Shown here piece by piece: positions 1 to 11,746 of a stretch of 11,746 nt of DNA. The notes under the pieces are model-generated. The model worked only from the letters and a program-made list of their open reading frames with translations. It was not told the DNA's origin and did no database searches. The translations under genes and the position numbers were made by a program. Position 1 is the stretch's first letter, and the number at the start of each line of letters is the position of its first letter. Source of the DNA: Nocardioides sp. (GTDB lineage: Bacteria > Actinomycetota > Actinomycetes > Propionibacteriales > Nocardioidaceae); assembly GCA_003519585.1 (NCBI GenBank), contig DOWL01000020.1, positions 1-11,746 on the forward strand. The letters are read 5' to 3'.

Positions 1-1143
1 GTGGAACCAGCGCAGCGACTTCCAAAACCAGGAACGGGTGAACTCCGAGACCAGGCCGGCGGCCGCGAGCGGCCCCGTGGCGGTGAGCACCAGCAGGGAC
101 GCCGCGCGGGCCAGGTAGACCAGCACGTGCCCGATGGCGGCCAGCCACAGGAAGATCCCGAGGAAGGCAAGAGCGGTGGCCACGCCGGCGTCGGTGATGT
201 CGTCGATGCCGAGTCCGCCGAGCGGGTCCCAGTCGGGCCAGGTCTGCACCTTGAGCAGCGACTTCATCAGCGCCTTGGTCAGCGCCCCGCAGGCCGCGAT
301 GATCATGACGCAGTACCCGAACCAGCAGGCGCACACCAAGACGAACTGGCCGGACCCGATGAAGGCCCGGGCGAGGCTCTTGCCCTCGCGCTTGAAGGCC
401 GCGGCGCCGAGCTGGATCATCGCCAAGATGACCACCAGGGCCAGCGCCAGCCACAGGGTGAAGGCGTAGACGTCCTTGCCCGGGCCGTCGGCGCTCAGGT
501 CCGGAGTCAAGAACAGCTCACTGAACGTGAGCACGATGCGCAGCACGAACAGGCCGGAGTTCCAGATCGCGAGCATGGCCGCGGTCCAGGCGTCGGCCGC
601 GGCCTTGGCGATGACGTCGCCGATGGCCTCGAACGGGTTGGGGATGTCGCCCAGCCCGGGGATGCCGCCGCCGAAGAGGTCACCGACGTTCGGCAGACCG
701 GGGATCCCGGGCAGCCCAGGGACCCCCGGAAGCCCGGGCAGCCCGCCGATGTTGCCGCAGATCGCGTCGAGGATCCCGCAGCCGTCGAGGAGCAGATCTC
801 CCGCGCCGTCGAGCAGGTCGCCGGCACCGTCCTTCACATCGCCGGCGGCGGCCTTGCCGCAATCGATCGGGTCCTTGGCGCAGTCGACGGCGTCGCCGCC
901 GAGGTCGCACAGGGCGTCGGGCCCCGGGCAGCCCATCTTGAGGTTGCGGGCCGGCAAAGTGCCGCTGGTCGCCACCGGGGCGACTAGAGCGAGGTGCGCC
1001 GTGCTGGCGGCCGGCTCGCTGGCCGCTGCGGCGGGAGGCTGGAGGGTCGAGGCAGCTCCGAGGAGCGTGGTGAGCACCAGGAGCGCCAGGGCGGCGATGC
1101 CGAGTCGGCTCGCCCGGCGCACGGCGGTGATGACGGTGTTCAC
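1..1143 (-). CDS. TrbL/VirB6-like polytopic conjugation membrane protein (3' end outside window)
   Basis: A GTG start at 1143 overlaps the stop of the preceding gene as GTGA, with GGAG about 9 bases upstream. 381 codons are visible and no stop is reached. The order is: an N-terminal hydrophobic segment (about 13-30) that looks like a signal peptide, an external linker with six cysteines (C72, C79, C88, C95, C122, C129), a run of G-x-P triplets (134-151), then hydrophobic segments near 190-212, 228-248, 262-287, 319-345 and 347-365. An extracytoplasmic head followed by many helices fits the TrbL/VirB6 type of inner-membrane channel protein in actinobacterial conjugative systems. Its place after a VirB2-like and two possible VirB8-like genes supports this. 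The family assignment is by architecture and context, not by a catalytic motif. The missing part probably holds further helices and a cytoplasmic tail. Confidence 0.72.
   Translation of the reverse strand, partial: MNTVITAVRRASRLGIAALALLVLTTLLGAASTLQPPAAAASEPAASTAHLALVAPVATSGTLPARNLKMGCPGPDALCDLGGDAVDCAKDPIDCGKAAAGDVKDGAGDLLDGAGDLLLDGCGILDAICGNIGGLPGLPGVPGLPGIPGLPNVGDLFGGGIPGLGDIPNPFEAIGDVIAKAAADAWTAAMLAIWNSGLFVLRIVLTFSELFLTPDLSADGPGKDVYAFTLWLALALVVILAMIQLGAAAFKREGKSLARAFIGSGQFVLVCACWFGYCVMIIAACGALTKALMKSLLKVQTWPDWDPLGGLGIDDITDAGVATALAFLGIFLWLAAIGHVLVYLARAASLLVLTATGPLAAAGLVSEFTRSWFWKSLRWFH
691..744 (-). repeat. Collagen-like G-x-P triplet run inside the TrbL-like gene
   Basis: Codons 134-151 of the TrbL-like gene encode six consecutive Gly-X-Pro triplets with X being Leu, Val or Ile, followed by a looser Gly/Pro/Leu-rich stretch to about residue 170. 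The run is hydrophobic, unlike the charged or hydroxylatable triplets of true collagens. It lies between the cysteine-rich external linker and the first membrane helix, so it may be a flexible or extended spacer through the cell wall side of the membrane. Confidence 0.7.
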
Positions 1144-1916
1144 TGGGGAGCTCCGTTGATCCGGATCCAGCCGGCCTTCTCGAACTCGGGGGTGCCGGGC
1201 GCCACCGCCTGCGGCTGGCCCTCCGAGACCAGGTGCTCGATGTCCGCTTCGCTGCCCTGGACCAGTCGCCAGTCACCGTCGAACCACCGCATCAGCTGGG
1301 TGCCGGCGTAGAGGCTGTCCTTGACCTGGCCGTCGGCGGTGGTGAGGGTGACGTAGCTGAGCAGGTTCACCGCGTAGTAGCCGGTGTCGAGCTCCTCGAG
1401 GGTGTAGGCGACCGGGGTGACGGCGTACGACGCGGGGGCGGGCACGTCGCCCTCCTTCGCGACGCCGGCCTGCTGGCGGCGCAGCGCGACCGCGGCGCGG
1501 GAGCGCTCCTCGAAGACGGCCTTGTCCTCGGGGTTGGCGTAGAGGCGGGCGACGGTGACGGCCTGGTCGTAGTCGAACCCGAGCTGTGCCTTGGCCAGCT
1601 CGACCTGCAGCGCCACGGCGCCCAGGTCGGTGGCCGGGAATCCGGTCGGGTAGCCGTCGACCTGGTCGTCGCCGGTCGGGATCACGACGCCGTCGGCCGG
1701 CGCGGTGTCCGGTGCGACCTGCTCGACCGATGCGTTCTCGACCGTCTGGCTCGAGTTGTCCCCGCCGGTGGTGTCGGGGCCGCCGGAGTCGTCGTCGGCC
1801 CGGGTGCGAGCACCGAGCCAGACGACGGTGGCCACCATGCAGGCGATCGCCACCAGGATGCCGATGCGCACCAGGGTGGCCCGCGAGTCGTCGTTGCCGC
1901 TCGTCAGGTTCTTCAT
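1140..1916 (-). CDS. Single-pass membrane protein, VirB8/TcpC-like candidate, second of a duplicated pair
   Basis: 258 aa. The ATG at 1916 overlaps the previous stop as TGATG. There is a short cytoplasmic N-terminus, one membrane helix at about 16-36, an acidic low-complexity linker (40-75), then an external globular domain to the end. The domain has a GFP motif at 92-94, an alternating beta-rich stretch (about 165-220) ending in W211-x-x-G-D-W216, and a C-terminal P-G-T-x5-AGW motif at 240-250. The same three motifs occur in the same order in the 288-aa neighbour, so the two look like paralogues. A cytoplasmic stub, one helix and an external alpha+beta domain are the layout of VirB8/TcpC/TraM scaffold proteins of Gram-positive conjugation channels, whose domain has the NTF2-like fold. 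That fold is inferred here. Translation is coupled on both sides. Confidence 0.6.
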   Translation of the reverse strand: MKNLTSGNDDSRATLVRIGILVAIACMVATVVWLGARTRADDDSGGPDTTGGDNSSQTVENASVEQVAPDTAPADGVVIPTGDDQVDGYPTGFPATDLGAVALQVELAKAQLGFDYDQAVTVARLYANPEDKAVFEERSRAAVALRRQQAGVAKEGDVPAPASYAVTPVAYTLEELDTGYYAVNLLSYVTLTTADGQVKDSLYAGTQLMRWFDGDWRLVQGSEADIEHLVSEGQPQAVAPGTPEFEKAGWIRINGAPQ

Positions 1917-2782
1917 CAGTGGTCCCCTTCGATGTGGTCAGGGTCAGTGGTGTCGTCGGTCGACCAGGTGCGCCAGCCGGCCTCGTGGGCCAGCTGCGTG
2001 CCGGGCCAGGTCGCGGGGGCGGGTGCGGGCGGGGCGCCGGGGGCGACCATCCAGCGGCCGCCGACCCACTGCATGCGCTCGCAGTGGGCGAAGGCGATCT
2101 GGCCTTCCTGCTTGTAGGAAGCGGTGACCTTCAACAGCACGCAGACGGTGGTCCAGTCGGGCCCGTCGGTGCCCTTCACGAGCGCGGCTGCCGGCACGAG
2201 GGAGACCGAGGAGCTGGGGTCCTTGACCTCGCCCATTCCGGTGCTGGTCAAGAAGGCCTGGACGCTGGCGTTGATCCACCACTCCTCGGCGCGGACCCCG
2301 CCGGGCAGGGCCCAGGCGTTGTAGACCTCCGCGGCCGTGGTCAGGCTCATCGACTGCAGCACCGCGAGGTCGATCTGCGCGAGCTGGCCGATCGCGCCCT
2401 CGGGGGTGTGCGGGAACCCGGTCATCACGAACGCCGGTCCGTTCACACCGGTGCCAGCCGGGATCTTGATGAGGGGCGCCTTGGCGCTGGTGGTCTCGGC
2501 CGGGAAGGCGGCGTTCTCGGGAACGGCCAGCATCGGCTCGGCCGCTACCTGCTCGCGGTGCACGGCACCCTGGGCCACCGTCGAGCGGTCGGTCTCGCCG
2601 GTGGCGACGTCGGTGTTGGCGCTGGCTTCCTCGCCGATCCCGGCGACGGCCAGGTAGACCGCGTAGCCGAGGCCACCGAGCAAGAGCGCAGCCACGACGA
2701 CGGCGGCGACCAGGATTCCGAGCAGGCGGCGCCGGCCCCACTCCGTGGCGCCTTCGGCCTTTTTCGTGGCTGCGCGCCGCAT
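1916..2782 (-). CDS. Single-pass membrane protein, VirB8/TcpC-like candidate, first of a duplicated pair
   Basis: 288 aa. The ATG at 2782 overlaps the stop of the small membrane protein gene by one base (TGATG). The order is: an arginine/lysine-rich cytoplasmic N-terminus (1-19), a long membrane helix (about 20-47), an acidic/threonine-rich linker (50-100), then an external domain. In the domain are GFP at 122-124, a predicted helix with the sequence AEVYNAW (151-157), cysteines 214 and 234, W239-x-GGRW at 239-244 and a C-terminal PGT-x5-AGW at 260-270. These match the motifs of the next gene in order. The likely role is a structural scaffold of the secretion channel, anchored in the membrane with the domain in the wall space. 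No enzyme motif is visible. A generic conserved actinobacterial protein of unknown function remains possible. Confidence 0.6.
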   Translation of the reverse strand: MRRAATKKAEGATEWGRRRLLGILVAAVVVAALLLGGLGYAVYLAVAGIGEEASANTDVATGETDRSTVAQGAVHREQVAAEPMLAVPENAAFPAETTSAKAPLIKIPAGTGVNGPAFVMTGFPHTPEGAIGQLAQIDLAVLQSMSLTTAAEVYNAWALPGGVRAEEWWINASVQAFLTSTGMGEVKDPSSSVSLVPAAALVKGTDGPDWTTVCVLLKVTASYKQEGQIAFAHCERMQWVGGRWMVAPGAPPAPAPATWPGTQLAHEAGWRTWSTDDTTDPDHIEGDH

Positions 2783-3075
2783 CAGATGCAGCCCTTGCCG
2801 AGGATCCCGTTGAGCATGCCGGGCAGCACCAGGTAGGCGATCGCGCAGGCGAACACGACCACCACCGAGATCACGCCGACCTTGGAGGCGTGCGGCAGGG
2901 AGAACACTCGGCCGGCGATGATCGCGCCGATGGCGATCACGATGCCGAGGCCGAACAGGACGATGACGCCCCACAGCACGTAGCTGGTGATCTCGTTGGT
3001 GGGGCCGACAGCACCCGGGGGCGCCTTCGGGCAGACAGCCATCACGGTGGTTGCGGTTGCGGTCATGACGTCCAT
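2782..3075 (-). CDS. Small two-helix membrane protein, VirB2/TrbC pilin-like candidate
   Basis: 97 aa from an ATG at 3075, with a clear AAAGGAAG ribosome site in the 38-base gap after the upstream gene. There are two hydrophobic helices at about 32-55 and 65-86, joined by a short polar turn containing R56 and HASK at 62-65. Before them is an N-terminal stretch with C15 and PPG, and the protein ends in a short loop with Gly, Lys and C96. Small size, two closely spaced helices and position just before VirB8- and VirB6-like genes are typical of VirB2/TrbC-type pilin or pore subunits. Unlike many Gram-negative pilins it lacks a long cleavable leader, so a membrane pore subunit is as likely as a true pilus. 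Assignment rests on size, topology and context. Confidence 0.6.
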   Translation of the reverse strand: MDVMTATATTVMAVCPKAPPGAVGPTNEITSYVLWGVIVLFGLGIVIAIGAIIAGRVFSLPHASKVGVISVVVVFACAIAYLVLPGMLNGILGKGCI

Positions 3076-3113
3076 AGGTGGACTTCCTTTCTGGGTTGCT
3101 GACCCCGGGCGGG

Positions 3114-3962
3114 TCAGGCGCTTTCGCTGGTGTCGGTGGGCAGATGTGCGGGCTCGAGCAGCTGACGTGCTGCCGAGATCAGGGGGGCCGGGACGGGTCG
3201 GGAGTCCAGGCCGTTGACCGCGAGCTCGCGGTCCTCGGGGATCTCCACGCACCGGTCCGCGACCAGGGCGCGACGTAAGGCGGGGCCGCCGGCGTGCTCG
3301 AGGCCCCGGGTCCACTTCTTGCGGCGCGGCCCACGCACGGCGAGGGCGATCTGCTCGGGCTGGCAGTGGTTGGCCAGCAGCTCGAGCGCGACCGAGGCGC
3401 GGCGCATCCCGGGGACGGTGGCTGTCGTGACCAGGACGACCTGGTCGGCGGTGCGGACGGCCTCGGCGAGCCAGCAGTCGGTGGCCAGCAGCTGACCGGC
3501 TTCCCAGCCGACGTCGAGGATCGTCAGCTGGGTCTCGTGCTCTGCGTCGATCGGCAGCGGGATCTCGTCGACGCCGGCGAGGACCTCGCTGGCCCGCTCG
3601 AGCAGAACGTGGTCGCGCTTGCCCTGACGCCAGTCGGTCGGGTGAAGGCCGAGCTCGGCGGTGCTTGCCGCGGCGAGACCAGAGGCGGTGACCGAGCAGC
3701 ACTCGATCACCCGGACCGGGGCGGCGGCGGCCAGGCCGGCTGCCAGGGCGATGGTGCTGGCTCCCACCGACCCGGCGCATCCGATCACCGCGATGGTGTG
3801 CTCCCCCGCAGCTGGCGACCAGTCGTCCGCGGCTGCGGTGCCGCGGCCGCGGGGTCCCTTGCCGGCGCCGGCGCCGGCGCGGAACTCGCCGGCGTTCACG
3901 GCGTCCCAGGCTCGCTTGAGCTCGTCGACGCCGACCGGGCGGCTCGAGGTCTGGGTGCTCAC
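3114..3962 (-). CDS. ParA/MinD/CpaE-like P-loop protein with degenerate Walker A
   Basis: 282 aa. The GTG at 3962 overlaps the previous stop as GTGA, with GGGGAGG a few bases upstream. The N-terminal 50 residues are a Gly/Ala-rich tail. A beta strand (about 57-61) leads into G61-C-A-G-S-V-G-A-S-T70, which aligns with the deviant Walker A of ParA/MinD ATPases (KGGVGKT) but lacks both lysines. A Walker B-like strand ends in D150 (ILDVGW), followed by strands near 174-180 and 205-210 as in the MinD fold. The family drives positioning or assembly of surface machines and plasmids. Loss of the lysines resembles CpaE-type members of pilus clusters, where ATP hydrolysis may be weak or absent. It probably localises or assembles the neighbouring membrane channel. 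A plasmid partition role is less likely, since no ParB-like partner is seen. Confidence 0.72.
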   Translation of the reverse strand: MSTQTSSRPVGVDELKRAWDAVNAGEFRAGAGAGKGPRGRGTAAADDWSPAAGEHTIAVIGCAGSVGASTIALAAGLAAAAPVRVIECCSVTASGLAAASTAELGLHPTDWRQGKRDHVLLERASEVLAGVDEIPLPIDAEHETQLTILDVGWEAGQLLATDCWLAEAVRTADQVVLVTTATVPGMRRASVALELLANHCQPEQIALAVRGPRRKKWTRGLEHAGGPALRRALVADRCVEIPEDRELAVNGLDSRPVPAPLISAARQLLEPAHLPTDTSESA

Positions 3963-4180
3963 TTGGCCTCCCCGATACCGCCGCGGCGGAACTCGAGCGC
4001 GGCACGGACCTCAGCCGGGGTCAGGCTTGCCAGCTCTGCCTTGGCGGCCTGGACTTCGTGCAGTTGGGCGACGCAGCCGGTGAGCTGCTCGATCGCCTCG
4101 ACCTCGCGGCCGGCGATCGCGAACAGGTCGGCGATCTTCTCCGGCGTCCGGCTCTCGCCGTCGTCCTGGGTGTATGTCAT
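3959..4180 (-). CDS. Small helical protein of unknown function
   Basis: 73 aa. The ATG at 4180 is preferred because a near-perfect GGAGGTGG (4189-4196) lies 8 bases before it. An in-frame ATG at 4252 would give 97 aa, overlap the sigma-like gene by 11 bases and also has AGGAAG upstream, so it cannot be excluded. Residues 12-52 form a likely long amphipathic helix rich in Glu, Ala and Leu with one Cys (C36). Residues 54-63 (LTPAEVRAAL) look like a second short helix. There is no membrane segment or signal peptide. It overlaps the ParA-like gene by four bases, so the two are probably made together, and it may be a cytoplasmic partner of that protein. The family is not recognised. Confidence 0.65.
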   Translation of the reverse strand: MTYTQDDGESRTPEKIADLFAIAGREVEAIEQLTGCVAQLHEVQAAKAELASLTPAEVRAALEFRRGGIGEAK

Positions 4181-4188
4181 GGGCTTCA

Positions 4189-4196
4189 CCACCTCC
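4189..4196 (-). promoter_or_regulatory. Ribosome binding site that decides the 73-aa start
   Basis: On the minus strand this reads GGAGGTGG, eight bases before the ATG at 4180. It is almost fully complementary to the 3' end of 16S rRNA. It argues for the short 73-aa form over the longer form from 4252. Confidence 0.65.
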
Positions 4197-4241
4197 AGTC
4201 GCCTATGTGTCGTCGGGCGGTGGGAGCGATCACGGTTGCGC

Positions 4242-5195
4242 TCATTCGTCATGGCCGAACTTCCTCGTGGCGGCCGCGGCGAGGGCGCGCATGCTGCGCG
4301 AGCCGTGGCGACGGACGGTTGCCTCGGACACCCCGCCCCGCGGTGCGACACGGCTGGACACCTCGTTGCTGAGCAGGCCGCCGTAGCCGCGGGCGAGGTT
4401 GCGGGTCTCGACGCGGTCGGCCTCGTCGACCAGGCAGAGCAGCAGGTAGCGGTCGGCCGCGCTGATTACCTGGTTCTCGCAGGCCCACGCCAGCAGCTCC
4501 AGCAGCTCCTCGGTGGCCGACGGCTCCTCCTGCCCCGGACCGGCGCCTGCGAGGATCTCGGGCCAGGGGAATGGGGCGCCGGCAACCCGTTCGATCGGCA
4601 TCGCGGTGGCGCTCCACGCTCCTGCGTCGCCGTCGGCCAGGTCGCCGGAGGAGAAGGACTCCACGAGGGTGGTGTTCGCCCACGTGCGGTCGGCGCGGGA
4701 GACGTAGAAGAAGTCCCCGACCTCGCGGAGGACGCCGACGCGGGTGTTGATCAGGATGTTCGCGGCGACCTTGCGCAGCCGGCGCCACTTGAAGGTCCGG
4801 ACTTCGATCCACAGCTGGGAGGCCACCAGCTCGTCGATCCGCTCGACGGCCGACCAGGAGCCGGCCGCGACGGGCTGGCTGTCGCGGAAGACCTCGCGGG
4901 GAGGGAGGGTGCTGAGCCAGCCGGCGAGCCGGCACGCGCCGGGCAGCAGGCACTTGGCGAGCGCGGCCGCGGCAGCGATGTCGTCACCGCCATCGGGAGC
5001 CGCCAGCATGGCCAGCGCCAGGAGGACCTCGTCAGAGGCTGCGCTGTCGACCGAGGGCAGCCAGGCCCGGAGGTCGTCGAACTCCTCGACGACTCCAAGC
5101 CGTGGATCAGCGGCCACCCAAGTCGGCCACTTCTGGCGGGCCTTGTCGAGCAGTTCGCTGTTGTCGTCGAGGCCGAGCTGGTCGCCCACACTCAT
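4242..5195 (-). CDS. Divergent sigma-70-like regulator (helix-turn-helix), first gene of operon A
   Basis: 317 aa. ATG at 5195 with AAAGGAG about 8 bases upstream. The C-terminal 85 residues read like sigma region 4: a helical part with ISAADRYLLL (244-253), then a helix-turn-helix near 283-310 with G-x-SEATVRRHGSRSMRAL, the usual GVS-x-x-TVRR-x-R-RA-x-x-L pattern of recognition helices in sigma factors. The N-terminal half has a D-x-x-LLALAMLAA (55-66) and an LLPGACRLAGWL helix (83-94) reminiscent of region 2, but the conserved aromatic residues of promoter melting are not evident. A tryptophan-containing middle (about 130-215) is unassigned. Being first in the operon, it may control the operon's own promoter. 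It may be a true alternative sigma factor or a DNA-binding regulator descended from one. Confidence 0.62.
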   Translation of the reverse strand: MSVGDQLGLDDNSELLDKARQKWPTWVAADPRLGVVEEFDDLRAWLPSVDSAASDEVLLALAMLAAPDGGDDIAAAAALAKCLLPGACRLAGWLSTLPPREVFRDSQPVAAGSWSAVERIDELVASQLWIEVRTFKWRRLRKVAANILINTRVGVLREVGDFFYVSRADRTWANTTLVESFSSGDLADGDAGAWSATAMPIERVAGAPFPWPEILAGAGPGQEEPSATEELLELLAWACENQVISAADRYLLLCLVDEADRVETRNLARGYGGLLSNEVSSRVAPRGGVSEATVRRHGSRSMRALAAAATRKFGHDE

Positions 5196-5247
5196 CGCAC
5201 TCGCTCCTTTCGTCCGTGGCTGTGCACGGCAGAAAGGTCGCGAGCGG

Positions 5248-5337
5248 GCGTCCCCGCATCCGTCCCCCCAAACCCCCGATTCGGAGGGGGACGCAGAGGG
5301 GGGACGCGCGTTTCCGCAGGTCAGAGGGCGTCCCCCC
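5248..5337. repeat. Five copies of a GCGTCCCC element in both orientations
   Basis: On the plus strand: GCGTCCCC at 5248-5255, CCGTCCCCCC at 5260-5269, inverted GGGGGACGC at 5286-5294, inverted GGGGGGACGC at 5298-5307, and GCGTCCCCCC at 5328-5337. Copies 4 and 5 form a perfect 10-base inverted repeat, and copies 2 and 3 an 8-base one. Copies within each pair of like orientation are 12-13 bases apart. Such an array could bind a dimeric or multimeric protein. If the minus-strand transcript starts near 5375, it would instead form alternative RNA hairpins in the leader of operon A. Confidence 0.75.
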
Positions 5338-5518
5338 GAAAGTTGCAGAAACTTCTTGGCCAGGGTGGCGCGGAGCCTATTGTTTCTATTCTCTGGCTTC
5401 TGGACGTCGTGCGCGCGAGGGGTCGCCTGAGGGTGCGCGCTACGTCAGCGCCCCGCCTCCTAATCCGCGCCCGCCGCGACAGCCGCAGGCGTACCACTAA
5501 TCGAGCGGCGCAAGTCGG

Positions 5519-6682: not shown

Positions 6683-7588
6683 TCACTGGGTCAGCACCTG
6701 GGCCTCCCCGATGCGGATCGGGAGCGGCTCGGTGGCCAGGTCGAACTCGATGGTTCCGGACTGCCCGCCACCGGTCCACTCGACCACCCAGTGACTGGCC
6801 GCGGTGACCTGGTACGCACCCTCGGGCTGGTTGGTCGACATCTTCGCGTAGCGGTGCCCGCAGGTCGGGGAGTCCTGCTTGCCGTAGTGATCGGCGTACG
6901 GCGTTCCCTTGCCGGTGCACGTCACCTTGGTTCCGTCGCCCATGTTCCACACGATGCTGGAGACGCTGGCGGTGGCGCTGACCGAGACCGGCCCTTCGCT
7001 GGCGGACGCGGTGATCGGTCCGAACGTGTCATCGGTCGGGCTGTCGACCCACATCCACACCGGCAGACCAACGAGACCAACCCGGTTGGCGCCCGACTCG
7101 GGGACGATGCCGATCGTGATCGGGTCCAGGTCCATCGATGCAATGGCCCGTTGAGCCAGCACCTCTGGATCGATGGTCACTGTGCCGTTCTCGATCCACA
7201 TCAGTTCCCACGAGGACCCGGGCGGGGGGAAGTAGCAGACGTGCCAGGCGCCGTCCTCCTCGGTCTGCCCGGGCGGCGGCTCGGTCTCGTCTGCGGGGAA
7301 CGCCTCTCCGACGTAGCACCCGTGAGCGCTGCTCCAAGTCGATCCTTCTGGGCCCGTGCAGGGAATCTCGTTGCCTTGGTACGAGCACGTTGACGAGCCT
7401 CCGTCACCAGGATCGTTGTCCTCGTCGCCATCATCGCCGGGGTCCTCGCAGACGAGCACTACCTCGCCGGTGTCCGGATTGGTCTCATAGTGGCAGTTTT
7501 GGTCGCCATCAGCGGCGGCCGGCGACGAGCCCCCAATCGTGACCAGCCATGCGGCGGCCACGATCGCGGCGAGCGCCCGGGCTAGCAC
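6683..7588 (-). CDS. Secreted cysteine-rich protein with PKD-like domain
   Basis: 301 aa from a GTG at 7588, which has GGGA six bases upstream and overlaps the lipoprotein stop by seven bases. A TTG at 7600 would add four residues. A signal peptide covers about 1-27 (cleavage after an Ala-rich stretch). Then comes an acidic Asp/Gly linker (49-64), a cysteine-rich part (C32, C47, C68, C77, C91, C118), a P-x-VLAQ-x-A helix (141-149) and a C-terminal beta-rich domain with WNMGDGT (214-220), C224, GTPY (228-231), SPTCGHRY (240-247) and a final W-x-VEW pattern. The W-x-MGDG core and later CGHRY strand are typical of PKD-like folds in a family of secreted actinobacterial proteins found near transfer-type gene clusters. 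Eight cysteines after export suggest four disulfides. It should act outside the cell, perhaps as a wall or surface component. No catalytic motif is seen. Confidence 0.75.
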   Translation of the reverse strand: MLARALAAIVAAAWLVTIGGSSPAAADGDQNCHYETNPDTGEVVLVCEDPGDDGDEDNDPGDGGSSTCSYQGNEIPCTGPEGSTWSSAHGCYVGEAFPADETEPPPGQTEEDGAWHVCYFPPPGSSWELMWIENGTVTIDPEVLAQRAIASMDLDPITIGIVPESGANRVGLVGLPVWMWVDSPTDDTFGPITASASEGPVSVSATASVSSIVWNMGDGTKVTCTGKGTPYADHYGKQDSPTCGHRYAKMSTNQPEGAYQVTAASHWVVEWTGGGQSGTIEFDLATEPLPIRIGEAQVLTQ

Positions 7589-8145
7589 GACTTGTCCCAA
7601 AGCACGTTTGAGCTGTTGACGAGCCAGCGGCCCTTCTGCTTGATCAACTCGTACTGGATCGGCACCGGGTTTCGCAGGGGGTTGCCCTCGGGGTCCTTAG
7701 GTTCGGGAACCGGCTTGCCGTCCTTCGTGCGCTCGACTCCGCTGCGGTCCTCGCAGTCGGTGATAAGCACTTGCGAGCCGCGGTCGCGCGGCTCATCGAG
7801 CAAGTGAACGTACTCCCCCGTGACCTTGCTGCCGGAGCGCTCGATTCCAGAGACGTTCTGCTGAAGGTTCAGGAACTCTTGTCCAGTTGCGACCTTGTTG
7901 AGGCGCTTGAAGTCGATGGTCGCGGCACGGAGCGCGTCGTCACGAACCTCGAGGTAGGTGGTCAGTTGGGCGGCAGCCTTCTCCTCAGGAGTCATCGGGG
8001 TGGGCGAAGCGCTGGTCGGCGTTTCGGTCGGGGTGGCGGTTGGGGTGTCCTCGGCCTCGGGGTCGGTGCCGTCGTCCGAGCAGCCCATGAGGGTCAGGGC
8101 AAGGGCGAGGGCCACTCCCCCGAGTGCGGAGTGGTGCTTCCTCAT
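7582..8145 (-). CDS. Lipoprotein of unknown function
   Basis: 187 aa. ATG at 8145 overlaps the previous stop as ATGA, with AGGAGGAG about 8 bases upstream. A basic N-terminus (RKHH), hydrophobic core and LMGC lipobox with C22 show a lipoprotein signal. A Thr/Pro/Ser spacer (24-52) follows, typical for crossing the wall. The folded part (53-187) starts with a helix (PEEKAAAQLTTYLEVRDDAL), then alternating strands, and ends in W174, W183 and a C-terminal C187. With C131 it could form one disulfide. The helix followed by a beta sheet resembles the NTF2-like folds of actinobacterial lipoproteins, but this is an inference. Membrane-anchored on the outside, it is translationally coupled to the secreted PKD-like protein and is a plausible partner of it. 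Confidence 0.75.
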   Translation of the reverse strand: MRKHHSALGGVALALALTLMGCSDDGTDPEAEDTPTATPTETPTSASPTPMTPEEKAAAQLTTYLEVRDDALRAATIDFKRLNKVATGQEFLNLQQNVSGIERSGSKVTGEYVHLLDEPRDRGSQVLITDCEDRSGVERTKDGKPVPEPKDPEGNPLRNPVPIQYELIKQKGRWLVNSSNVLWDKSC

Positions 8146-8417
8146 GCGGTGTCTCCTCCTGTGTTGGGCGGCGCCATGACTGATCGCTGGCTGACGTCGG
8201 TGGCAATGTGCTCGAGGTGTTCTTCGGCGGCGTCGACGAGCTCGGCCAGCGAGCCGTTGTCGGCGGGTTCGATCCCGAACCTCTTGTCGGCGTTGTAGAG
8301 CGTGCCGATGGTGTCGCGAACGAACACGGCCCGCGCGACGCGGCGGGCGTCGAGGTCGGGGCGGTCGCCGCCGGCCGCGACGTAGCGGCCGGTGAGCTCC
8401 TGGTCGAGCGTGGTCAT
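8142..8417 (-). CDS. Small protein of unknown function in operon B
   Basis: 91 aa. ATG at 8417, with a GGGAAGGGAG ribosome site, 22 bases after the stop of the large LysM/BTAD gene. It ends in an ATGA overlap with the lipoprotein gene. There is no signal peptide and no membrane helix, so it should be cytoplasmic. Residues 21-40 (DLDARRVARAVFVRDTIGTL) look like a helix, and 55-75 form a second acidic helix with ELVDAAEEHLEHI. The family is not recognised. Sitting directly between a membrane-tethered regulator and two exported proteins, it may be an adaptor of the cytoplasmic part of that regulator, but nothing in the sequence proves this. Confidence 0.65.
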   Translation of the reverse strand: MTTLDQELTGRYVAAGGDRPDLDARRVARAVFVRDTIGTLYNADKRFGIEPADNGSLAELVDAAEEHLEHIATDVSQRSVMAPPNTGGDTA

Positions 8418-8439: not shown

Positions 8440-11400
8440 TCAGCTCGCGAGCCAGCCGTGGTTACTGATGATGGTCTTCGTGCGCTCCGACAGTTCCAGC
8501 GGGGCGTCGCCGTCGTCGGACCGGTTGCAGATCTCCTCGCGGAGGATCCGGTCGGCCTCGAGCTGGTCGCCCTCGGCCTTCATGACGTGCGCCAGGCACA
8601 GGCGGGTGCTCTCGCCGTCAGGGTCTGCCCGGTTGGCGACGTAGGCGGCGGAGCGGGCCTTGACCAGGGCGCCGGCGGCGAGAGCCTCGGTGACGACGAT
8701 GAGGGCGACGTCGGCGATCCAGCCGGACGCCATGAGGTCAACGCGGTCGGGCTCGTTGACGAGCCAAGACCATCCCTCTTCACGCAGTTGGCTGAAGGGC
8801 TTCGACTCGCCGACCAGCTCGAGCGCGGTGCAGAGGTCGGCGACGCCTTCCGCTCCGCCCCGGGCCTGCCCGCGCTTGCGCAGCCGGAGGAAGAGGTGGA
8901 GATCGACCAGGAGACCGTCGTCGACCTGGTAGACGTTGACGCCGCGGAGCTTGGTGGCAGGGGCCTTGTCGGCGTGGGGCAGGTGGGGCTCTCCAGTGGT
9001 GGGGTTGGTGCCCAGCCACTCGCGGACGGTGTTGGTGTAGTCGCGCACCTTGCCGGGGGTGATCCCGAATGCCTCGCCAATCTCCTCGCGGGTGGCTCCG
9101 TGCTTGCCGTGCATGGCCAGGTACGCGAGCAGCTCGGTGAAGTAGGGCTTGCGCTTGGCCAGCGCCTTGCCGTGGGTGCGCGCGGTGACCGGGCCGAGCA
9201 GGCTGAGCCTTGGACGGTCGCAGTTGGTCGAGAACCAGTCGGCGATGTCTTGGTCGAGAGTGGGGTCGCACTGTTCGACCTCGGCTCGGACGTGCTCGGG
9301 CACCTTCGGCGCCAGCGTCTCGAGGTCCTCCTGCACGATCGCGCTGTGCCGGATGTAGTCCTCGTCGTCGCCCTCCAGGAGGGAGGACAGCGGCTCGTCG
9401 ACGGTGTCCGCGGGGGTGTTGCGCGGCAGGGTGTACCCGCGGCGCAGTGCCCCGGACTGGTCGGTGTAGGCCTCCCAGCCGTCGGTGGCGGTCTCGTCGA
9501 CCGGGACAGGTACCTCCTCGGCGACCTCGCTCTGTGCGTAGACCAGGGCGCAGCCGCGGGCCTCGTCGCTGGTCAGGCCGACGGCGATGAGGTTGAGGCC
9601 AGCGTGCTCGAGGACGACGCGGCCGGTGTTGGTCATGTGCAGGACGGCGCCCGGGGTGTTGGGGCGCTCGCCGGCGACGACGATGGAGGTGGCGGACTGC
9701 CCGACGTGGTTGGTGACCAGCTGCAGCAGCTGCTCGAGGTCCTCGGGGTCTCCGGCAGCCGCGTCGAGCAACAGCATCCGGGCGGGCCAGGTGTCGTCGT
9801 CGACGCTGCCGGTGCGCGCTGTGGACGCGTCGGTGTCGTGTCGCTTCGCCCGGTCGACCGTGGTGACGGCGGCCGCGAGGGCTTCCGCGGTCGCGGGTGA
9901 CCCGGCTGCTCCGGTCGGGTAGTAGCTGATCCGCTCGTCCATGGCGACGGCTTCCTCAGCCACGCCGATGCAGTCGACCTGGACGCGGCGCGACCACGGG
10001 TTGACGGCGAGCTGCGCGGCGAGGTGGCGGGCGAAGTCCCGGCCGTAGGTCTGGTCGCCGCTGATGGTGAGGGTGGACAGCTCCTCGCAGTTGAGCAGCC
10101 ACGTCTCGCCGGTGTCGCTCATGCCGATGGTGGCCAGGAGCGGGTAGGGCGGCTCGACGTTCCCTGTGTCGGGGCCGAGCTCGTCGACGGCGGTGTCCGT
10201 GCTGACGTGCCAGTGGGTCTGGTCCGGGCTGCCCACCCACGGCGCCGGCACCGCGGCCGGTGCGCTCAGGTGCAGCGTCAGCTTGCCGTGCGCGAGCTCC
10301 ACGGCAGCGAGCGGCGGCATCGTGGTGCCCTGCGCGCCGACGGCGGCCGCGAGGCGGCGCAGCGCCTCGTCGGCGAACTCCACGGTGGCTGCGGCCGCGG
10401 CACCGGTGGCGTTCAGGGTCATCTCGACCGGCGCGAGCTCCGGAGGCGGCGCGGCGATCGCGCGGCCGGGCGTCCGGTTCCGGTAGCCGGCGCGGCGGCG
10501 GGACCGCAGGGCCATGAGCAGTGCCCCGGACAGCAGGACGCCCCCGCCGGTCAGACCGGCGAGGACCCACGGCGCGTCGAGGATCGAGTCGTCAGCGTCG
10601 TCGACCTGGTCGACGTCGGCGGCCCGCGCCGCCGGCTCCTCGGCTTGGGGCGGCGCGTCGGGCACGGCCGTCTCGGGCACCTCGGGCACCTCGGGCACAT
10701 GGGCGACCGGCGGCTCCTCCTCGGCCGGCGGGTCGACGGGCCGCTGGTCCTCGGGGCCGGCGGGCGTCTCGGGCTCGACGTCGCGCGGCTGCTGGTGCTG
10801 GGTGTCGTCGTGACTGCCCCCCTGCTCGGCGTCGGGGATGTTGAGCTTCCAGCCGACGTCGATGACGTCGGGGTCGGTCAGCTGGGCCCCGCCGGGCTGG
10901 GTGATGCCGGTGGAGGCCCGGTAGATCTCGGGCCAGCGGTCGGCGTCGCCGAGCTGCTCTTGGGCGATCTCGCTGAGGGTGTCGGTGGGCTGCACCGTGT
11001 AGTCGTGCGCCGGTGCCCCGCCGTTGAGCGCGGGCAGCTTGAGTACCCAACCGGGCTCGAGGAAGCTCGGCTGCGCGCCGAGGAGGTCACGGTTGAGTTC
11101 GACGAGCTCCTTGTAGCGGGCACCGTCGCCGAAGTGGTCCTCGGCGATCGACCACAGGCTCTCCCCCGGCTTCACAGCGTGGTCGACGGTCTTGCGCTGG
11201 CGCTCCTGCTTCGTCTCGACCTTGAGGTCCTGCTGGGCGGGTGCCTGGTCGGCGGCACCGGCGTTGACGTGTCCCACCGTCACCGGCGCCGCGGCGGCCG
11301 AGGTGATCGTGGCTGGCTGGGCGGCGATGGGCGCGGCGATGAACAGCAGAGCGGCGAGGCCGATGAGGCCGCGTGCTGCGGCCTGCGGCCGGCCCAGGCC

Positions 11401-11700
11401 CGGCAGCTGCGGCGCCTGGACCTTGCGGAGCCGTGCGATGGCCTCCACGACCAGGCTCAGCGCCATGAAGGCCCACGCGACCCAGCCGATCACCTTGAAC
11501 AGGCCGAGGACGAGGGTGCCGTCGTCGGGCGCCATGAGCGCGTTCTTGATGCCGTCCAGGGTCGGGACGTGGTCCGGGATTGGGCTGGCACCGATCGCGA
11601 GGAATAGTGCGGGCAGCCCGAGGACGATGCCGAGTACGGCGACCGAGGCTGCGAGGCCGGTGAGCCGCTGGCCCAGGGTGGGATGGGTGGGCGTGGTCAT
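8440..11700 (-). CDS. Membrane-spanning LysM receptor with cytoplasmic SARP-like winged helix and BTAD domain
   Basis: 1086 aa. ATG at 11700 with AAGGAGG nine bases upstream, overlapping the previous stop as ATGA. Three hydrophobic helices (about 16-38, 68-90, 110-130) lead to an external part with two LysM repeats (173-222, with VKPGESLWSIAEDHFGD, and 233-288, with VQPTDTLSEIA). A Pro/Glu-rich spacer (300-370) and a fourth helix (376-398) follow, then a basic RSRRRAGYRNR stop-transfer that puts the remaining 690 residues in the cytoplasm. The middle (about 530-720) looks like a degenerate P-loop ATPase. A winged helix (838-900) precedes a helical region (925-1086) like the BTAD of SARP activators. 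LysM binds peptidoglycan, and SARP activators bind direct repeats near promoters. A membrane-bound regulator reporting wall state is the simplest reading. The BTAD end may instead be only a protein-binding scaffold. Confidence 0.82.
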   Translation of the reverse strand: MTTPTHPTLGQRLTGLAASVAVLGIVLGLPALFLAIGASPIPDHVPTLDGIKNALMAPDDGTLVLGLFKVIGWVAWAFMALSLVVEAIARLRKVQAPQLPGLGRPQAAARGLIGLAALLFIAAPIAAQPATITSAAAAPVTVGHVNAGAADQAPAQQDLKVETKQERQRKTVDHAVKPGESLWSIAEDHFGDGARYKELVELNRDLLGAQPSFLEPGWVLKLPALNGGAPAHDYTVQPTDTLSEIAQEQLGDADRWPEIYRASTGITQPGGAQLTDPDVIDVGWKLNIPDAEQGGSHDDTQHQQPRDVEPETPAGPEDQRPVDPPAEEEPPVAHVPEVPEVPETAVPDAPPQAEEPAARAADVDQVDDADDSILDAPWVLAGLTGGGVLLSGALLMALRSRRRAGYRNRTPGRAIAAPPPELAPVEMTLNATGAAAAATVEFADEALRRLAAAVGAQGTTMPPLAAVELAHGKLTLHLSAPAAVPAPWVGSPDQTHWHVSTDTAVDELGPDTGNVEPPYPLLATIGMSDTGETWLLNCEELSTLTISGDQTYGRDFARHLAAQLAVNPWSRRVQVDCIGVAEEAVAMDERISYYPTGAAGSPATAEALAAAVTTVDRAKRHDTDASTARTGSVDDDTWPARMLLLDAAAGDPEDLEQLLQLVTNHVGQSATSIVVAGERPNTPGAVLHMTNTGRVVLEHAGLNLIAVGLTSDEARGCALVYAQSEVAEEVPVPVDETATDGWEAYTDQSGALRRGYTLPRNTPADTVDEPLSSLLEGDDEDYIRHSAIVQEDLETLAPKVPEHVRAEVEQCDPTLDQDIADWFSTNCDRPRLSLLGPVTARTHGKALAKRKPYFTELLAYLAMHGKHGATREEIGEAFGITPGKVRDYTNTVREWLGTNPTTGEPHLPHADKAPATKLRGVNVYQVDDGLLVDLHLFLRLRKRGQARGGAEGVADLCTALELVGESKPFSQLREEGWSWLVNEPDRVDLMASGWIADVALIVVTEALAAGALVKARSAAYVANRADPDGESTRLCLAHVMKAEGDQLEADRILREEICNRSDDGDAPLELSERTKTIISNHGWLAS
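10672..10698 (-). repeat. Three tandem copies of a 9-base unit
   Basis: CTCGGGCAC occurs three times head to tail on the plus strand. It encodes a V-P-E repeat in the Pro/Glu-rich spacer that carries the LysM domains away from the fourth membrane helix. Copy-number changes would lengthen or shorten this wall spacer without breaking the frame. Confidence 0.75.
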
Positions 11701-11746
11701 CTCTCGATGCCTCCTTCGGCGCGGATGAGCCGCGCGGACGCCCCCC
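11697..11746 (-). CDS. C-terminal end of an upstream operon B gene (partial)
   Basis: Fifteen codons (GASARLIRAEGGIER) followed by TGA. The stop overlaps the ATG of the LysM/BTAD gene as ATGA, the same junction seen elsewhere in the window, and this is the main reason to believe the frame. The AAGGAGG ribosome site of the next gene (11710-11716) lies inside it. Too little is visible to name a family. Confidence 0.5.
   Translation of the reverse strand, partial: GASARLIRAEGGIER

Follow-up and report, generated by a model that had tools for sequence, protein, structure and literature searches.

What task could be served by a protein that joins LysM domains, whose usual ligand is peptidoglycan, to the fold of SARP activators, which are normally soluble proteins? 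The question is raised by an 11,746-nucleotide stretch of Nocardioides sp. DNA (contig DOWL01000020.1 of assembly GCA_003519585.1, here called the window), in which a minus-strand open reading frame (ORF; 8440..11700), with its ATG at 11700 and a stop codon ending at 8440, encodes a product of 1086 amino acids, referred to below as the LysM protein. An earlier note on this DNA saw in it either a membrane-tethered transcription regulator or an assembly scaffold responding to the wall. The architecture and folds of the protein, the loss of its Walker A motif, its linkage to Tad pilus genes and the loss of DNA contacts known from AfsR were established by computation. Our reading, held with little more than even confidence, is that the protein serves as a wall anchor and organiser of a Tad pilus machine, to which a SARP-like module is tethered.

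The only Pfam family found above the cut-off in the window protein was LysM (47.2 bits against 20.9, E 2.1e-12), in two stretches, while the AlphaFold model, computed from 120 sequences, had a mean predicted local distance difference test score (pLDDT) of 79.5. From the N- to the C-terminus the model comprises three membrane helices (residues 9-35, 62-91 and 103-121; 11596..11676, 11428..11517 and 11338..11394, all features here and below being on the minus strand), two LysM domains that are also supported by Pfam and fold matches (residues 171-224 and 231-289; 11029..11190 and 10834..11010), a disordered acidic linker (residues 291-378; 10567..10830), a fourth membrane helix (residues 387-407; 10480..10542), which like the second is apparent in the ORF translation, a stalk helix (residues 420-457; 10330..10443), an alpha/beta domain, a winged helix and a set of helices. 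The frame of 1086 residues, the four membrane helices with two LysM domains between the third and the fourth, and the basic stretch after the last one were therefore described correctly in the earlier note. A second structure model gave the same domain matches; the two are not independent, since most alignment rows are common to both. Basic residues follow helices 2 and 4, and helices 1 and 2 are joined by an acidic loop, a pattern that fits LysM domains lying outside and a large C-terminal part lying inside. Judging from these charges, the LysM domains, and presumably the acidic linker with them, would be extracytoplasmic and the C-terminal part cytoplasmic, and a C-terminus outside the cell, which the earlier note had regarded as fatal to its proposal, was not indicated. 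The two LysM domains probably hold peptidoglycan. Nineteen phage records also match the protein, but over the first LysM stretch only (5% of the query).

Homologues were collected with the window protein and with a Streptomyces and a Xylanimonas query, which led to the retrieval of 361 proteins (the best 120 listed of 461, of 462 and of 293 matches), and 120 sequences selected by us among these were aligned. The three resulting sets (window query, n=26; Streptomyces query, n=44; Xylanimonas query, n=50) are named for the query that found them, not from a tree. Comparison with solved structures revealed that the alpha/beta domain (about residues 461-745; 9466..10320), overlooked by the earlier note, the anatomy of which was otherwise largely correct, folds like the RecA-like motors FtsK, EccC and TcpA. 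In none of the 120 aligned sequences, the window included, does this domain contain the Walker A pattern G....GK[S/T]. The window protein has GDQTYGRD at the corresponding place (residues 548-555; 10036..10059), a degenerate version devoid of the lysine and of the serine or threonine of the motif, and in the alignment the lysine position is most commonly occupied by arginine (84/120) or is a gap (29/120). The pattern does occur in four of the 361 retrieved proteins, at residues 221-222 or 996, that is, outside the FtsK-like domain. At the place of Walker B the window protein reads D646-A647, the aspartate being found in 61 and a following glutamate in 15 of the 120 sequences. The domain thus appears to be a pseudo-ATPase that has lost nucleotide binding and hence probably an assembly platform rather than a motor. 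There is a precedent for such a pseudo-motor in the DUF domain of EccC, a membrane-adjacent FtsK-type domain which, according to a passage of PMC11154593, does not bind ATP.

The surroundings of the gene point to the machine concerned. The frame in front of it in the window (11697..11746) ends with ASARLIRAEGGIER followed by a stop codon, exactly as the annotated TadG of locus L035 does, and represents the C-terminal end of TadG, the TGA of which overlaps the ATG of the LysM gene (ATGA). The common gene order elsewhere is SAF-TadZ-CpaF-TadB-TadC-flp-TadE-TadE-TadG, and then the LysM gene. Tad genes were found upstream in all 28 informative loci among 30 contig loci (L021 and L028 begin inside the LysM gene), some of which show only the last one or two of them because the contig ends. 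The same holds for 16 of 16 other genome loci, namely all four copies in the nearest genome, G001, and all 12 informative loci in its relatives; L059 has no Tad gene within 1.5 kb, the Tad set being disclosed by a wider fetch (L065), and in L066 the Tad genes are present in a different order. Tad genes also adjoin the LysM gene in each of 14 annotated plasmid regions, which were chosen by us from 200 and 230 matching records and originate from Nocardioides, Streptomyces, Microbacterium, Paenarthrobacter, Cutibacterium, Micrococcus, Clavibacter, Rhodococcus, Micromonospora, Xylanimonas and Brevibacterium; the homologue on the Cutibacterium acnes plasmid is among those sitting in a Tad locus. 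Two or more other genes separate TadG from the LysM gene in L040 and L041. The gene has a scattered distribution, occurring in 12 of the 25 relatives and, within the genus to which G001 belongs, in 7 of 16, and the four copies in G001 (L001-L004), each beside Tad genes, are 96, 85, 44 and 42% identical to the window protein, as would be expected of mobile DNA. The LysM gene is, in short, a component of actinobacterial Tad (type IVc) loci borne by plasmids and chromosomal elements. G001 also holds two ordinary BTAD genes (L049, L050).

The C-terminal module was compared with solved structures as well. Residues 820-1086 match AfsR, the best solved match, and EmbR in fold, with an OmpR-type winged helix (residues 829-928; 8917..9216) followed by a BTA (BTAD) domain (residues 930-1062; 8515..8913), and both the winged helix expected by the earlier note at 838-900 and its SARP/BTAD-like end were borne out. 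The Pfam cut-off for BTAD was passed by two of nine relatives scanned. Neither AfsR nor EmbR appeared when solved structures were searched with sequence profiles only: for the profile of the whole family, the 22 matches listed were to LysM proteins and, weakly, to TPR proteins, and among the 40 listed for the C-terminal profile TPR proteins predominated, CadC (E 0.033) and TcpP (E 0.63) also being present. Hence, the SARP assignment rests on the fold matches and on the Pfam matches of the relatives. A sigma-70 region 3 domain suggested at 861-894 (E 0.059, below the cut-off) was rejected, as this stretch is the helix-turn-helix of the winged helix.

The residues by which AfsR touches DNA are named from cryo-electron microscopy in a section of PMC10936776, and were mapped onto the recognition helix of the LysM protein (residues 882-897; 9010..9057) by taking R893 as AfsR R94, whereby T88, S91, R92 and K95 align without a gap. 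Only these five contacts were counted, Q48, P79 and W74 being left aside; the placement of W74 is uncertain, as the loop that precedes the recognition helix is of a different length. The window protein has D887, N890, T891, R893 and E894 at T88, S91, R92, R94 and K95, and, with one contact of five kept, it is described here as carrying a SARP-like module and not classed as a SARP activator. The window set behaves alike, with D in 18, N in 17, I or T in 22 and D or E in 21 of its 26 sequences at T88, S91, R92 and K95. In the distant Xylanimonas set the contacts are kept: the counts out of 50 are 38 for T88, 44 for S91, 49 for K/R at R92, 50 for R94 and 46 for R/K at K95, while the Streptomyces set is intermediate (T 10, S 22, R 21, R or K 23 of 44, in the same order as for the window set). 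The mean net charge of the recognition-helix region is +0.9 in the window set, +3.3 in the Xylanimonas set and +4.4 in the Streptomyces set. Moreover, the recognition helix is the best conserved part in the Xylanimonas set (identity 0.786 versus 0.582 for the winged helix), whereas in the window set it falls below the winged helix (0.663 versus 0.717). The SARP unit seems to be derived from a DNA-binding activator, which some of the relatives still resemble; in the window set, the binding of a partner, or of DNA in a different manner, is more likely than activation in the manner of AfsR. Regulation by DNA binding is possible for the window copy but is not favoured.

Evolutionary rates were estimated from 26 genes, those of the window and of 25 of the 30 contig loci, after removal of L018 and L029 (in-frame stops), L021 and L028 (partial) and L034 (distant); these and the conservation figures compare members of the LysM-gene family, ordinary SARP genes being outside the comparison. 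The ratio of nonsynonymous to synonymous polymorphism (pN/pS) was lowest for helix 4 and the stalk (0.14), followed by the FtsK-like domain (0.16) and BTA (0.19), and was higher for the winged helix (0.29), helices 1-3 (0.29) and LysM (0.33). Over 1000 bootstrap draws, the winged helix had the higher ratio every time when set against the FtsK-like domain, and 945 times when set against BTA. In-frame stops were noticed in the LysM gene of L018, L029 and L056, which may be decayed copies, frameshifts or assembly errors.

If a tethered activator acted on the tad operon, its target might be sought upstream of the first gene. Up to 330 bases in front of the SAF gene are strongly conserved across the Nocardioides loci (L006-L033), and several elements were discerned there by eye: GATAGAAATGCACTAGTGT with the palindromic CACTAGTG, GGTCCCATGGA, and the hairpin-like CAGTCCCATCGGGGGGACTG; the core strings of these elements do not occur in the window. 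Heptamer direct repeats, at least 6 of 7 bases alike and spaced 8-23 bases, were scanned upstream of the operon in 24 loci (23 contig loci and L035). At spacing 11 there was no excess (5 seen, mean of 12.6 in shuffles). Spacing 17 gave 35 repeats against a mean of 13.3 and a largest value of 30 in 60 mononucleotide shuffles, a figure to be read in the light of sixteen spacings tried and of related sequences.

The arrangement we favour, wall anchor and organiser, would work as follows. The two LysM domains would hold the protein to peptidoglycan, and the four membrane helices and the stalk would lead to the cytoplasmic FtsK/EccC-type domain, which, being nucleotide-dead, may act as an assembly platform and not as a motor. 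The CpaF motor and the TadB/TadC platform could in this way be anchored and organised at the wall in bacteria devoid of an outer-membrane secretin, while the SARP unit (winged helix and BTA) at the C-terminal end might bind a partner, or DNA in a non-AfsR fashion. Both the contact with CpaF, TadB or TadC and the function of the protein are put forward here as the most suitable interpretation. The assembly scaffold of the earlier note fits best, given the Tad genes beside the gene in every informative locus and the nucleotide-dead FtsK/EccC-type domain. Several observations pull in the other direction. The C-terminal unit can be aligned in 120 of 120 sequences with R893 invariant, and by pairwise identity the winged helix is the best conserved domain of the window set (0.717), a degree of conservation that a pure scaffold would not need. 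The whole winged helix carries a mean net charge of +5.4 in this set versus 0.0 and -3.3 in the other two, so that DNA might be bound by another face. In addition, linkage was assessed from the LysM gene towards the Tad locus only, and the tie to pilus assembly is itself deduced from computation.

The main rival is a membrane-tethered SARP activator, a one-component system resembling CadC or ToxR, in which LysM would sense the wall or the pilus outside, the pseudo-FtsK domain would relay the signal, and winged helix and BTA would recruit RNA polymerase to tad or transfer promoters. Its strengths are a full SARP fold, for which both models gave AfsR and EmbR as matches, the contacts kept and the well conserved recognition helix of the Xylanimonas set, and the conservation upstream of the tad operon; however, most AfsR contacts are lost in the window set, heptamers spaced by 11 bases are not in excess, and a different regulator may account for the blocks conserved upstream. 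We regard this activator as possible but rather unlikely overall, its case being stronger for the relatives that keep the contacts. The tethered regulator of the earlier note accordingly loses ground for the window copy, with one contact of five, a faster winged helix and no excess of repeats spaced by 11 bases, and stays plausible for the wider family. Still more doubtful, in our opinion, is trans-envelope signalling by one protein, a SARP tethered to wall and membrane that would pass on to promoters, through a nucleotide-dead FtsK/EccC-type assembly, the state of the wall or of the Tad pilus; were it true, the window set would show the module shifting from a DNA reader to a structural part. 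It is improbable that the FtsK/TcpA-like domain and the winged helix receive DNA at the membrane, with Tad serving as a mating or uptake pilus: the genes of the window include conjugation-type ones, among them a ParA-like gene, but the absence of Walker A from all 120 sequences leaves such a protein with no motor of its own, and in 12 of the 30 contig loci the flank fetched, at most 10 kb long, contains no homologue of the ParA-like gene. A chance hydrophobic ORF, in which SARP and LysM domains were merely misread, would agree with the lack of a Pfam BTAD match in the window protein itself, yet the LysM E-value, hundreds of homologues and two models with the same domain matches rule this out for practical purposes.

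The LysM gene is followed by a 91-residue ORF (8142..8417), the next operon gene, kept in most Nocardioides loci, whose end is overlapped by the start of a 187-residue lipoprotein-like ORF (7582..8145), and by a 305-residue secreted-looking ORF (6683..7600); all three, known from the ORF list and homology, are on the minus strand. The L035 homologue of the lipoprotein-like product is 60% identical and annotated as a member of the IseA DL-endopeptidase inhibitor family, which would fit control of wall hydrolysis near a pilus. In other Tad loci, the 305-residue ORF has homologues that are situated either in front of the SAF gene or in the interval from TadG to the LysM gene. Conjugation-type genes (1-5195, minus strand), TrbL/VirB6-like, ParA-like and others without a Pfam match, recur downstream of the Tad operon. 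Since a homologue of the ParA-like gene at least 81% identical is present in the flank of 17 of the 30 contig loci (L034 has one at 28%), the Tad genes and those for transfer appear to move as a group. Between tadB and tadC, L017 (4036-7308) and L024 (4025-7273) each carry two long reverse-strand ORFs resembling, by eye, tyrosine recombinases, and L044 has an annotated tyrosine-type integrase (4378-5505) between its two platform genes.

Gram-positive Tad pili have no outer-membrane secretin to rely on, and the manner of their retention in the wall is, to our knowledge, an open question. The anatomy of the LysM protein suits this task, and the protein is found with Tad genes wherever this could be checked. 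Its SARP unit allows relatives in which the DNA-reading residues persist to be set against a group in which they have been lost, and with this natural contrast a direct link from pilus machine to transcription becomes testable. The earlier note called the system under-described, which is fair, though the combination is not unknown: source databases label some relatives SARP or LysM proteins, one of them (P0306) as "DNA-binding SARP family transcriptional activator/LysM repeat protein", and a table published in 2013 already lists LysM and BTAD in one ORF, placed towards the end of a Tad locus (PMC3666418, in its section 3.2 and Table 2). That ORF, PAGK_2369 of the C. acnes plasmid pIMPLE-HL096PA1, is labelled TadB there, and the passage in question gives neither an FtsK-like domain nor a function for it. 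No description of the pseudo-ATPase, the cross-genus linkage or the difference in DNA contacts, nor of a pilus machine with an integral SARP regulator, was found in the literature searched, most subscription journals and bioRxiv preprints being outside it.

Among known systems, AfsR (8hvr, 8k60; cryo-electron microscopy) and EmbR (2fez, 2ff4) have the same winged helix-BTA order, with 225-233 residues aligned at 15-20% identity, and large SARPs have extra domains after the SARP unit (PMC10936776, in the part cited above). Here, unlike in AfsR and EmbR, the SARP unit forms the C-terminus of a polytopic membrane protein, and most of the mapped DNA contacts are replaced in the window set. FimV/HubP proteins likewise have LysM outside, a membrane helix and a long cytoplasmic part with a TPR-type helical domain at its end, and such proteins can organise polar machines, although FimV of P. 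putida is dispensable for pilus-dependent motility (PMC12918733, in the portion devoted to them). The acidic region of FimV is cytoplasmic, whereas the linker of the LysM protein precedes the last membrane helix, and the FtsK-like domain and winged helix are extra. The FimV TPR domain had no Pfam match at E 0.1 in the window protein, and the fold lists were filled by other domains; the resemblance is one of plan, with no homology claimed. CadC, TcpP and ToxR also combine a winged helix inside with another part outside, and two of them gave the weak sequence matches mentioned above. They possess a single membrane helix and an N-terminal winged helix, and are not known to carry LysM or an FtsK-like domain. 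EccC and EssC of type VII secretion, most notably the DUF domain of EccC, and FtsK share the membrane helices, the stalk and an FtsK-type domain whose Walker A is not functional (PMC11154593, same passage); the LysM protein differs from them in having no further ATPase domains, LysM outside, a SARP unit inside and a place in Tad loci.

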